NCBI GenBank assembly: GCA_025057615.1
Contig: JANXBF010000001.1
Coordinates: 33,698 to 67,184 of the forward strand
DNA: 33,487 nucleotides
Reading direction: 5' to 3'
Origin: Candidatus Calescibacterium sp.
GTDB lineage: Bacteria; DRYD01
The position numbers and the translations under genes are program-made. The notes under the pieces are model-generated. The model was not told the DNA's origin. It worked only from the letters and a program-made list of their open reading frames with translations, and made no database searches. Below, one piece after another: positions 29,913 to 33,463 of this stretch (positions are counted from its first letter, which is position 1; every line of letters starts with the position of its first letter).

Positions 29913-32390
29913 ATGCAGCCGTACAAAGCTAAAATAGTATATTTTCCCAAGTACCTGGATATTTCAGCAAGAAGAATGTTGTTAGAAAGGAAAGAAAATG
30001 ATGCAAATTTAATAGAAGAAGATTATATATGGACAGATTTATCAAGAATGGATATAAATAGCTTAAGTGAAAACCAATACGCAGCTCTATTCTTGGGAGA
30101 TGAGTCCTATGCAGGCAGTAAAAATTTCATAAAGCTCAATCAGAATATCCAGGATACATTCAACAAACAACATCTTATTCCCACTCATAATATAAAAGGA
30201 GCCTGGAACCTGATAATCAAAATACTTGAAAATTTTGAAAACTATCAATTGAACCTAGTGAATTATAATCCTTTAGAAAATCAACACTTTGAAAAACTAC
30301 TCAACTATTATAAAATCAAACCACAGGGAAGTAAAAAAATATCAATCTTTTTCCTGAACTCCCTAGAAAGTTATAATTATAACATCAATGATATAAAGAA
30401 TATAATTTCAAGATTGAAAGAAGAGTCATTACTAATAATAGCAGACTTTTCAAACATTTTTTCTTTTACAAAATCAGATTTAGATGAAGTTAAAGAACTC
30501 AGTAATCTAGTTGATATAATAGTTATAGACTGCTCATTTGACTTAATGTCAAATACAGGAGCATTGTTAATAACTGATAATTTCAAATACTATGAATATC
30601 TTACAGAATGGGTAGTAGCCTTTGAAGGGCTACATACCTACGGTGGTTTAGCGGGAAGAGATATGGAAATTATAAATCAAGGGTTAGAAGAAGCAAAAAA
30701 CAAAAATTTCTGGGAATACAAAGAAAAATCAATCAATTTTTTATATGAAGAAATAAAGAGAATTACAAATACCATTGAAGGTTTTGAAATCAGCTCCTTA
30801 CACTCAACACATTATTTTTACGTAAAACATAGTATTCATAATATAAATAACCTATTATTCTTAGTAGGCCAAGTAAGAGGGTATAGCAAAGATAATTACA
30901 TTGTTCTGTATTTACCATCAAGGAAATATCAAAAGAGAAACTTGGAGCTATTTGTCAAATCTTTTGAATTGGCAATACAACAAAAAAACAGAAGATATAT
31001 ATCTGATTTTATTGATCCAAGAGATTATATTTCCTATAATTTAAAGGGTATAGAAATAATCAACTTACTACCCTTTGAGGATAGGAAAGAAACCCTAGAA
31101 AAAGCAGGTTATAACACTTTTTTAATACCAGCAGAAAAAGTTTACATAGATTTTTTAACGGATAGTGGAACAAGTAGTATGAGCGACGAACAATGGAGTT
31201 TAGCAATATTCTATGATCAAAAAAGAGCATATAAGTTTTTAGAAGAATCAATAGAAGATATATTTGGTTTCAGGTATTTTCTACCCACTCATCAAGGCAG
31301 AGCTGCAGAGCATATTGTTTCTCAAACAATGATAAAACCTGGACAGTTCGTGATAAATAACATGTATTTTACAACTACAAGGTTCCATCAAGAATATGCT
31401 CAAGGAGTTTTTGTTGATCTAATCATAGAAGAAGCTTATAAACCTGAAGTTCCACACCCATTTAAAGGTAATATAGATGTGGATAAATTAGTAGATTTCA
31501 TAGAGAAAAATGGAGCAAGTAATATAGCTTATGTATGTATCGAAAATAATGTTAACATGGCTGGAGGCCAACCAGTTTCTCTAGAAAACATAAAACAAAT
31601 AAGGAAAATATGTGATTATTATGGTATTCCTATAGTATTAGATGCAACAAGGATAGCTGAAAATGCTTTCTTTATCAAAGAAAGAGAACAGGGATATCAA
31701 AACAAAGACATAAAAAGTATCATAAAAGAGATAATGAGTTTAGCTGATGCTGCAACAATTTCGGCTAAAAAAGATCCACTGACCAATATAAGTGGACTAA
31801 TACTTGTTAGATCACCAGATTTGTTCACAAAAATGAAGAAAATGATAGAGATTTTTGAAGGTGAACATTATAATGGAGGAATGTCATCCAGAGATATAGC
31901 AATGTTAGCGAAGGGAATAATCGAGATGACCGACTTCTATTATCTAAAAAATAGGATAGATCAGGTAAGATACTTAGGAAATCTGTTAAAATCATCAAAT
32001 ATACCAATAGTAGAACCAATAGGTGGACATGCGATATATATTGATGCAAAAAGGTTTTTGCCCCACATAAGTCAAGAAGAGTTTCCTGCCCAGACATTGG
32101 CTGCATACATCTATTTATATGGTGGCGTTAGAACTATGGAAAGAGGAATAGTATCTGCAGGAAGAGATCCCAAAACAGGTAAACATAAATATCCAGAGCT
32201 TGAATTAGTTAGAATAACCATACCAAGAAGAGTTTATACCAATGAACATATGGAATATACAAGTGACACAATACGTGAGGTATTTAGTATAAGAGAAAAA
32301 ATAAGCGGGTTATCAATTTTATATGAGCCACCATTTTTGAGATTCTTCACAATGAGGTTCGAACCAATAAAAAAAACAGCTAATTTATGA
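29913..32390 (+). CDS. Tandem tyrosine phenol-lyase-type beta-eliminating lyase (pseudo-domain fused to catalytic domain)
   Basis: The 825 residues are about twice the length of a normal tryptophanase or tyrosine phenol-lyase (TPL, about 456). Residues 381-825 align end to end with TPL and keep PTHQGR (458-463), N548, DATR (577-580), SAKK with the PLP lysine K620, MERG (R744), R767 and LRFF. R744 matches TPL Arg381, a tyrosine-specificity residue, so TPL is favoured over tryptophanase. Residues 1-370 are a shorter degenerate copy. F209 replaces the PLP lysine and V331 the carboxylate-binding arginine, yet GDESYAGS (62-69) and YGGLAGRDME (243-252) are canonical. A GAAAGGAG site lies at 29897-29904. 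The expected reaction of the active half is cleavage of tyrosine, or a similar beta-substituted amino acid, to pyruvate and ammonia. Confidence 0.87.
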   Translation: MQPYKAKIVYFPKYLDISARRMLLERKENDANLIEEDYIWTDLSRMDINSLSENQYAALFLGDESYAGSKNFIKLNQNIQDTFNKQHLIPTHNIKGAWNLIIKILENFENYQLNLVNYNPLENQHFEKLLNYYKIKPQGSKKISIFFLNSLESYNYNINDIKNIISRLKEESLLIIADFSNIFSFTKSDLDEVKELSNLVDIIVIDCSFDLMSNTGALLITDNFKYYEYLTEWVVAFEGLHTYGGLAGRDMEIINQGLEEAKNKNFWEYKEKSINFLYEEIKRITNTIEGFEISSLHSTHYFYVKHSIHNINNLLFLVGQVRGYSKDNYIVLYLPSRKYQKRNLELFVKSFELAIQQKNRRYISDFIDPRDYISYNLKGIEIINLLPFEDRKETLEKAGYNTFLIPAEKVYIDFLTDSGTSSMSDEQWSLAIFYDQKRAYKFLEESIEDIFGFRYFLPTHQGRAAEHIVSQTMIKPGQFVINNMYFTTTRFHQEYAQGVFVDLIIEEAYKPEVPHPFKGNIDVDKLVDFIEKNGASNIAYVCIENNVNMAGGQPVSLENIKQIRKICDYYGIPIVLDATRIAENAFFIKEREQGYQNKDIKSIIKEIMSLADAATISAKKDPLTNISGLILVRSPDLFTKMKKMIEIFEGEHYNGGMSSRDIAMLAKGIIEMTDFYYLKNRIDQVRYLGNLLKSSNIPIVEPIGGHAIYIDAKRFLPHISQEEFPAQTLAAYIYLYGGVRTMERGIVSAGRDPKTGKHKYPELELVRITIPRRVYTNEHMEYTSDTIREVFSIREKISGLSILYEPPFLRFFTMRFEPIKKTANL

Positions 32391-33463
32391 TAATAGTATT
32401 TGCAAACGAAGAAAAGTGGAAATATGATGATCAATATTTTTATTATCCAGTATGTTTACCTACTTTAAAACTTATAGAAATTCTGTGTAAATATTTTCAA
32501 GAAAAACCTCTGTTTATAATTAATCATGAATCCCAAGAATTAATAAAAAAATTGATAAAGCTATACAATATAAATATCGAATTAGATTTAACAGAAAACA
32601 TAGATTTATCAAAGGATATATCAAAATATAACAAAAATGAAAATTTAGTTCTCATAGATCTTAACTCACCTTTACTATATTATAAAAGAGAAAAAATAAA
32701 GGATAAATTAATAAAAAGTAGAGAACGCAAAGTCATAAATGTAAATTTAATTGATCATAAATTTATGATTGGAAAATCAATAGAATACATTTTCAAAATA
32801 AGGATAATCAAGGATTTTGAGAAACTTTTCAATTTGATAAGAAAGTACTCTTTAGAAAAAGCTAAGAATATTATGTTAGGAAAAAATATTTTTATCTGCC
32901 CATTATCAACTCTGGAAGAAAACAATACAATTTTGGATAATACTTTTATAATAAACTCAGAGATAGGTAAATTCAATAAAATTGGTCCAAACTGCTTTAT
33001 TACGGATTCTCAAATAGGATTTAACAACGTCATTTCTCACAGTATTATCAAGAAAAATCAATTAATAAATGATAACTTTATAGGTCCATTTACTCATCTG
33101 AGAGAAAATAACATAATACACAATTCCAAGATAGGTGCATTTGTTGAGTGTAAAAACATTAAAGTTGATGGATATCTGAAAGCTCCACATTTAGCTTATT
33201 TAGGAGATTTAATAATAGAAGAGAATGTTAATATTGGTGCTGGTGCTGTTTTTGCAAATTACGATGGCAAAAATAAATACACAAGTATAATAAAGAAAAA
33301 CTCGTTTATAGGTTCTAATTCAGTAATAGTATCTCCTAAACAAATTGGTCCAAATTCTTATATAGGAGCTGGAAGTGTTGTGACAAAAGATGTTCACGAA
33401 AATACAATAGTTATTGGTAATCCAGCAAGGGTATATAAAAAATATGAAACTGACAATAAATGA
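32387..33463 (+). CDS. GlmU-like acetyltransferase with degenerate N-terminal domain
   Basis: Residues about 165-350 form a left-handed beta-helix of hexapeptide repeats matching the GlmU C-terminal domain. They include GPFTHLRE, FVECKN, KAPHLAYLGD with the catalytic-type His268, and NVNIGAG followed by NYDGKNK. That domain acetylates glucosamine-1-phosphate from acetyl-CoA. The N-terminal 165 residues occupy the place of the uridyltransferase domain but lack its LAAGxGTRM signature and are about 60 residues short. The C-terminal IVIGNPARVYKKY is more like other sugar acetyltransferases. The ATG overlaps the lyase stop (ATGA) without a separate ribosome site. The substrate is inferred. Confidence 0.8.
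   Translation: MIIVFANEEKWKYDDQYFYYPVCLPTLKLIEILCKYFQEKPLFIINHESQELIKKLIKLYNINIELDLTENIDLSKDISKYNKNENLVLIDLNSPLLYYKREKIKDKLIKSRERKVINVNLIDHKFMIGKSIEYIFKIRIIKDFEKLFNLIRKYSLEKAKNIMLGKNIFICPLSTLEENNTILDNTFIINSEIGKFNKIGPNCFITDSQIGFNNVISHSIIKKNQLINDNFIGPFTHLRENNIIHNSKIGAFVECKNIKVDGYLKAPHLAYLGDLIIEENVNIGAGAVFANYDGKNKYTSIIKKNSFIGSNSVIVSPKQIGPNSYIGAGSVVTKDVHENTIVIGNPARVYKKYETDNK

Follow-up and report, generated by a model that had tools for sequence, protein, structure and literature searches.

An apparently acetyltransferase-only GlmU, with GlmR as a candidate separate uridyltransferase, in Candidatus Calescibacterium and its relatives

GlmU is regarded as an essential bifunctional step on the way to the precursors of peptidoglycan and lipopolysaccharide (LPS). 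Archaeal-type GlmU (TIGR03992) has the same layout, a nucleotidyltransferase followed by a beta-helix acetyltransferase, for making UDP-N-acetylglucosamine (UDP-GlcNAc). In the eukaryotic split pathway, acetylation and uridylation are carried out by separate proteins, GNA1 and UAP1, in a different step order and with an unrelated acetyltransferase. A further enzyme, GlmR (also called YvcK), backs up a full GlmU elsewhere, as an accessory N-acetylglucosamine-1-phosphate (GlcNAc-1-P) uridyltransferase of Listeria and Bacillus. According to PMC10128056, GlmR, purified from Listeria and Staphylococcus aureus among others, makes UDP-GlcNAc in vitro, the Listeria protein is without acetyltransferase activity, and the changes D40A, D41A and N198A leave it about 100-fold weaker; in Bacillus subtilis, the authors of another study infer that GlmR is the sole source of UDP-GlcNAc on one medium (PMC13046274). 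Here we describe a glmU-like gene lying near the end of a 33,487-nucleotide stretch of Candidatus Calescibacterium sp. (assembly GCA_025057615.1, contig JANXBF010000001.1, positions 33,698 to 67,184), the whole of which we call the window. We consider it fairly probable that this gene codes for a monofunctional GlmU working with a separate uridyltransferase, most likely GlmR, the activities concerned being predicted from sequence.

The C-terminal part of the window protein (residues 153-351) matches positions 242-443 of the GlmU model TIGR01173 (E 4.8e-55), and GlmU chains in the PDB match it with E down to 7.6e-45. However, the protein falls some 95 residues short of the 452 positions of the model, and as a whole it scores 187.2 bits, about half of the curated cut-off of 366.85. 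No stretch resembling the LAAGxGTRM loop is present anywhere in it, as had been remarked in an earlier note on this DNA, and residues 1-165 taken alone give no convincing match in Pfam or NCBIfam (best E 1.4 and 0.16), nor any sign there of an unrelated functional domain. The same note put the N-terminal half at about 165 residues. The domain is indeed shortened, but the stretch ~135-160 belongs to the N-domain end and the joining helix, and the vestige proper covers residues ~1-135.

Orthologues were searched for in 59 genomes including the window's own (G000; 1.40 Mb in 91 contigs, 83.7% complete), and were found in the three other genomes of its genus (G001-G003) and in both genomes of a second genus (G004, G005), the G005 gene being divided between two contigs. 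These six genomes form the family, and a sister family of the same order adds a seventh (G006), in which only the last part of glmU is seen, at a contig start (model positions 346-437). The shortened or dead N-terminal half, without the loop, occurs in all six family genomes, each of which gives one match in a TIGR01173 search at E 1e-20 (two contig pieces in G005), starting at model position 189 at least. The metal-binding Asp of the GDxPL motif is Asn in all six sequences (LPANTPLIS at this site in the G004 protein, DLNSPLL or similar in the window genus), while the GVNN Asn persists in G001, G004 and G005 but not in the window protein, G002 or G003. The G004 protein (438 amino acids, aa) has an N-terminal half of ~230 aa, which is near the normal size of a GlmU N-domain, yet without the loop; compared with this second genus, the window genus lacks some 70 further residues. 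Since the G004 N-terminal half is nearly full length but already devoid of the motifs, loss of the catalytic residues seems to have come before the loss of part of the length, a conserved and apparently stepwise disappearance of one of the two functions of this core enzyme.

The earlier note called the beta-helix half intact, and this stands for 12 of the 13 mapped active-site or coenzyme A positions, which are identical in the window protein and kept in every family or order sequence covering them. It does not stand for the position of E. coli R440, which is Asn345 in the window protein and Asn also in every relative covering it. Conserved residues include R239, E254, K256, H268, Y271, N282, A285, K297 and S310 (window numbering), and those mapped to the glucosamine-1-phosphate (GlcN-1-P) site are all unchanged. 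E254, H268, A285 and S310 are the equivalents of E348, H362, A379/C379 and S404/C404, named as key acetyltransferase residues for Streptococcus pneumoniae GlmU in excerpts of PMC11947611. Judging from these residues, the beta-helix domain would acetylate GlcN-1-P with acetyl-CoA, and a GlmU whose C-domain works and whose N-domain does not is very strongly indicated. Where the GlmU tail carries R440, the window protein ends in GNPARVYKK (33416-33442), of which GNPAR is also present in G006; a GNPA-type tail is found in other sugar acetyltransferases.

The N-terminal half very likely descends from the uridyltransferase domain. In the full-length profile alignment (E 2.7e-50) the match starts at residue 135, taking in the GVNN region and the inter-domain helix as well as the beta-helix. 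With hhalign, a profile built from the six N-terminal halves aligns weakly but collinearly with the GlmU N-domain (columns 30-103 on 30-110, E 0.014), and that of the second genus alone does so over columns 53-189 on 49-192 (E 0.0023); in column-shuffle tests, 0/200 shuffles reach the real score for either profile. Two related points weigh against this descent: the profile of the window genus alone has no significant match, 8/200 shuffles being as good, and the homology depends on the sister genus. A model of the second-genus protein (L089; predicted local distance difference test, pLDDT, 66.6), in whose input alignment only beta-helix sequences of other GlmUs were added, has GlmU in all 25 of its best VIA-align matches (Z 13.9-16.0, most over residues 3-438, root mean square deviation ~10 A), above unrelated beta-solenoid proteins (Z 11.2 at most), and Foldseek places GlmU first (E 5e-3) and IspD next. 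This fold match is no independent proof, since the beta-helix may have been enough for AlphaFold to recognise GlmU. The AlphaFold2 model of the window protein itself is poor (pLDDT 56.9), with a strand-helix alternation as in nucleotidyltransferases; its fold match (IspD/TarI in Foldseek, only at E ~1) is too weak alone and was set aside. The proposal of a decayed nucleotidyltransferase domain, also made in the earlier note, is supported by the weak but collinear profile match through the sister genus and by the GlmU-like fold modelled for the sister-genus protein.

The remnant does not evolve as junk. Nonsynonymous to synonymous rate ratios (dN/dS, Nei-Gojobori) between the window gene and those of G003, G002 and G001 are 0.20, 0.30 and 0.27 for residues 1-150 and 0.12, 0.08 and 0.17 for the beta-helix, with dS near saturation in the G002 and G001 comparisons; between G004 and G005 they are 0.52 and 0.16 for the N-terminal half and the beta-helix, respectively. 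Moreover, E9, K12, Y13, Y20, P21, P25, K28 and L29, in the region of the GlmU nucleotide loop, are invariant in the six sequences. Purifying selection on residues 1-150, together with these eight positions, indicates that the remnant has a role, which is probably not the catalytic one. Having lost the signature loop, the metal-binding Asp and part of its length, it should not catalyse, and it may persist because it serves something other than catalysis, for instance folding, trimer stability or regulation.

UDP-GlcNAc is nevertheless required, as the presence of GlmM-like proteins, MurA and LpxA shows. A GlmM/phosphohexomutase-like match occurs in 7/7 genomes of the order, none over the curated cut-off (a strong GlmM-type match in five, a fragment in G001), and MurA in 5/7; in the window's genome, LpxA and LpxD-type proteins exceed the cut-off. 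A protein search of that whole genome found no second GlmU, and in the six family genomes we could find neither a canonical GlmU nor a stand-alone GlmU N-domain nor another GlmU-type acetyltransferase. As in the eukaryotic pathway, the two steps would fall to separate proteins, but 0/7 order genomes have an eukaryote-type UAP/UDPGP (PF01704) over cut-off. Scans for NTP_transf_3 and NTP_transferase, part of whose matches were named to family, gave RmlA-, ManC-, GlgC-, HddC-, CBS-, MPG1- and TTHA0179-like enzymes, and no GlmU N-domain. We rejected incomplete bins as the source of the missing uridyltransferase, the chance of losing one gene from all six being ~1.5e-5 from their completeness values, if losses are independent. 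The earlier note's suggestion that the acetyltransferase works with a separate uridyltransferase is therefore favoured, by the lack of a canonical GlmU elsewhere, the GlmM-like proteins and MurA, the unchanged sugar-phosphate site and the glmU-prs gene order of relatives, and we regard uridylation of GlcNAc-1-P by a separate enzyme as likely. The scans also met an NTP_transferase-family stretch with eight in-frame stops (G000:C16:6981-7704; L082, L085), near a NeuC/CBS-nucleotidyltransferase cluster, which is probably a pseudogene or a frameshifted copy.

The separate enzyme would most likely be GlmR, a member of the CofD family (PF01933, TIGR01826) encoded elsewhere in the genome. One copy is present in each of six of the seven genomes, and the four of these six that were scanned all exceed the TIGR01826 cut-off (248-326 bits against 196). 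The positions of the Listeria catalytic residues D40, D41 and N198, mapped via 2hzb by counting, are D36, D37 and N199 of L170 and are invariant in 6/6 lineage GlmRs, which may here be without the full GlmU partner found elsewhere. The archaea-like form of split that the earlier note had in mind is not favoured: the window protein, without a functional N-domain, scores 64.6 bits on TIGR03992 against a cut-off of 292.1, and GlmR is the best stand-in. We rank GlmR above the other nucleotidyltransferases of these genomes, at roughly even odds of being the right one.

Several points weigh against this assignment. GlmR is not specific to the lineage, occurring in many bacteria with a full GlmU (10/14 control genomes), and it was not found in G001, which is 71% complete. 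All seven genomes also carry two other nucleotidyltransferases, and at its level of completeness the window's genome may hold an unseen enzyme. In Enterococcus, GlmU overexpression is no substitute for GlmR, and the study could not decide if GlmR function needs uridyltransferase activity (excerpts of PMC10986989). The failure of GlmU to replace it there implies that GlmR has other roles.

One of the two other candidates is a stand-alone TTHA0179-like nucleotidyltransferase (G000:C55:5175-5993), which is present in 7/7 order genomes and whose Gly, Lys, DxP and late Asp positions, such as an active enzyme should have, are invariant or nearly so. Its closest solved relative is 2dpw, 'hypothetical protein TTHA0179', and GlmU chains are among its weaker profile matches. 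Yet the family is without a known substrate, adjoins an ispE-like gene in L048 and L050 (by eye), and occurs in 7/52 genomes outside the order, accompanied in at least five of these by a GlmU over cut-off, so that we think it unlikely to provide the last step. The family alignment (L041-L053) has an invariant RK pair along with the late Asp, and our search of the literature on TTHA0179/2dpw gave nothing relevant, judged by title. An MPG1/rmlA_long-like sugar-1-phosphate nucleotidyltransferase (G000:C41:9001-9522, a frame that ends at the contig end; 326-371 aa frames in relatives) is an equally improbable provider. It too is present in 7/7 genomes, and on the archaeal GlmU-type and rmlA_long models, whose group includes enzymes that uridylate GlcNAc-1-P, three members reach E values of 4e-39 to 2.9e-52. 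All these proteins, however, fall under every curated cut-off, and with no GalU over cut-off among the ten nucleotidyltransferases scanned (NCBIfam), they are equally likely to make UDP-glucose or GDP-mannose.

A different solution would be that the acetyltransferase has changed substrate, as the earlier note had also envisaged, and now modifies a different amino sugar, possibly as part of a heptose/LPS or legionaminic-type pathway, while other enzymes make UDP-GlcNAc. The rfaE1-rfaE2 genes that follow the gene in the window genus would fit this, as would the GNPA tail and the change of R440 to Asn. We nonetheless consider it quite improbable: the mapped GlcN-1-P-site residues are all unchanged, the GNPA tail is shared with the order-level relative G006, acetylation of GlcN-1-P would be left uncovered since no other GlmU-type acetyltransferase was found, and the sister genus keeps glmU next to prs and adds rapZ, a gene order that argues against a new substrate. 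Least probable of all, to the point of being nearly dismissible, is that the N-terminal half still uridylates through an altered active site, an idea that would suit its purifying selection and its conserved new stretch but has against it the missing loop, the Asn for Asp in 6/6 sequences, the loss of the GVNN Asn in 3/6 and the ~70 further residues deleted in the window genus relative to the sister genus.

The gene neighbourhood is in agreement with an acetyltransferase derived from an old glmU. The glmU-like gene is followed by prs in G004, G005 and G006, and prs by rapZ in G004 and G005; glmU-prs is a familiar, common bacterial gene order, and it is not present in the window genus. As relatives keep this order, the gene is most simply an old glmU that has moved, and its link to the lyase upstream is recent. 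The coupling to the lyase pointed out in the earlier note is real within the window genus, where the pair occurs in 4/4 genomes (overlapping in three, with a short gap in G001), the window's two frames sharing an ATGA; it does not extend to the sister genus, which has glmU-prs instead. We do not think that the lyase has any part in the GlmU-like function. Its N-terminal half (29913-31028), which matches PRK13238 at E 9e-33, is a tryptophanase/tyrosine phenol-lyase copy that has decayed, and it too is under purifying selection (dN/dS 0.11, against 0.04 for the C-terminal half). Downstream, rfaE1-like and rfaE2-like genes follow in 4/4 window-genus genomes, named by family search in the window's genome, where, immediately beyond the window (L040:4142-5667), the kinase and adenylyltransferase parts of HldE are encoded by two genes, rfaE1 and rfaE2. 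Elsewhere in this genome, a 591-aa frame (L003:1195-2970, G000:C3) joins, by eye, a Gfo/Idh-type oxidoreductase and a hexapeptide acetyltransferase, seemingly a fused sugar-modification pair. Coordinates are collected in Table 1.

Table 1. The glmU-like gene, its parts and the upstream lyase (positions in the window).
Feature	Position	Strand	Basis
glmU-like gene, 358 aa, predicted monofunctional glucosamine-1-phosphate N-acetyltransferase	32387..33463	+	Open reading frame (ORF) from ATG; TIGR01173 C-part, E 4.8e-55; orthologues in five other family genomes
Putative vestigial uridyltransferase domain, residues 1-135	32387..32791	+	No family match; collinear profile match to GlmU N-domain; dN/dS
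Lineage-specific conserved stretch E9..L29, at GxGTRM loop site of GlmU	32411..32473	+	Alignments
N93-S94-P95-L96 replacing GDxPL metal-binding motif (Asp to Asn in 6/6)	32663..32674	+	Alignment and hhalign columns
N-domain end and inter-domain helix, residues 135-160; GVNN Asn is Arg	32789..32866	+	hhalign; full alignment starts at residue 135, E 2.7e-50
Left-handed beta-helix acetyltransferase domain, residues 165-358	32879..33460	+	Profile, model and active-site mapping
ATGA overlap of lyase stop and glmU-like start	32387..32390	+	ORFs; overlap also in G002, G003; short gap in G001
Upstream lyase: intact tyrosine phenol-lyase/tryptophanase-like C-half, decayed tryptophanase-like N-half	29913..32390	+	Profile searches

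In a survey of 386 genomes, GlmU was over cut-off in 170. Follow-up covered 31 genomes, the seven of the order and 24 others picked for low best scores; genomes with two matches or a best E of 1e-25 to 1e-34 fall outside the count of C-terminal-only forms. None of the 24 low-scoring genomes outside the lineage has an acetyltransferase-only GlmU. In 15 of them the best match is to the N-part only (12 in frames below 300 aa), and in the remaining nine it spans model position 4 to 263-325, in longer frames. The stand-alone GlmU N-domains (~250 aa, model positions 2-245; L173-L187), common outside the lineage and with no evident acetyltransferase partner, are thus one-function GlmUs like the window protein, with the opposite half kept. 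GlmUs that keep just the uridyltransferase half are common; the opposite case seems rare, and these counts support that rarity without proving it. We found nothing in the open literature that describes a GlmU with acetyltransferase function only, or an organism in which GlmR is the one enzyme of its kind for UDP-GlcNAc.

That a lineage would drop the uridyltransferase activity of GlmU implies that a stand-in suffices, and annotating such genes as bifunctional GlmU would be wrong. Such a lineage would also allow a test of whether the full flux can pass through GlmR, which has been an accessory enzyme until now and whose principal role is disputed. More tentatively, and with somewhat less than even confidence, we suggest that GlmR is the sole GlcNAc-1-P uridyltransferase of the lineage, and that the dead N-domain is kept as a non-catalytic module, perhaps docking GlmR or RapZ or sensing UDP-GlcNAc. 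If GlmR is indeed the only uridyltransferase, an accessory enzyme would have become the essential one.

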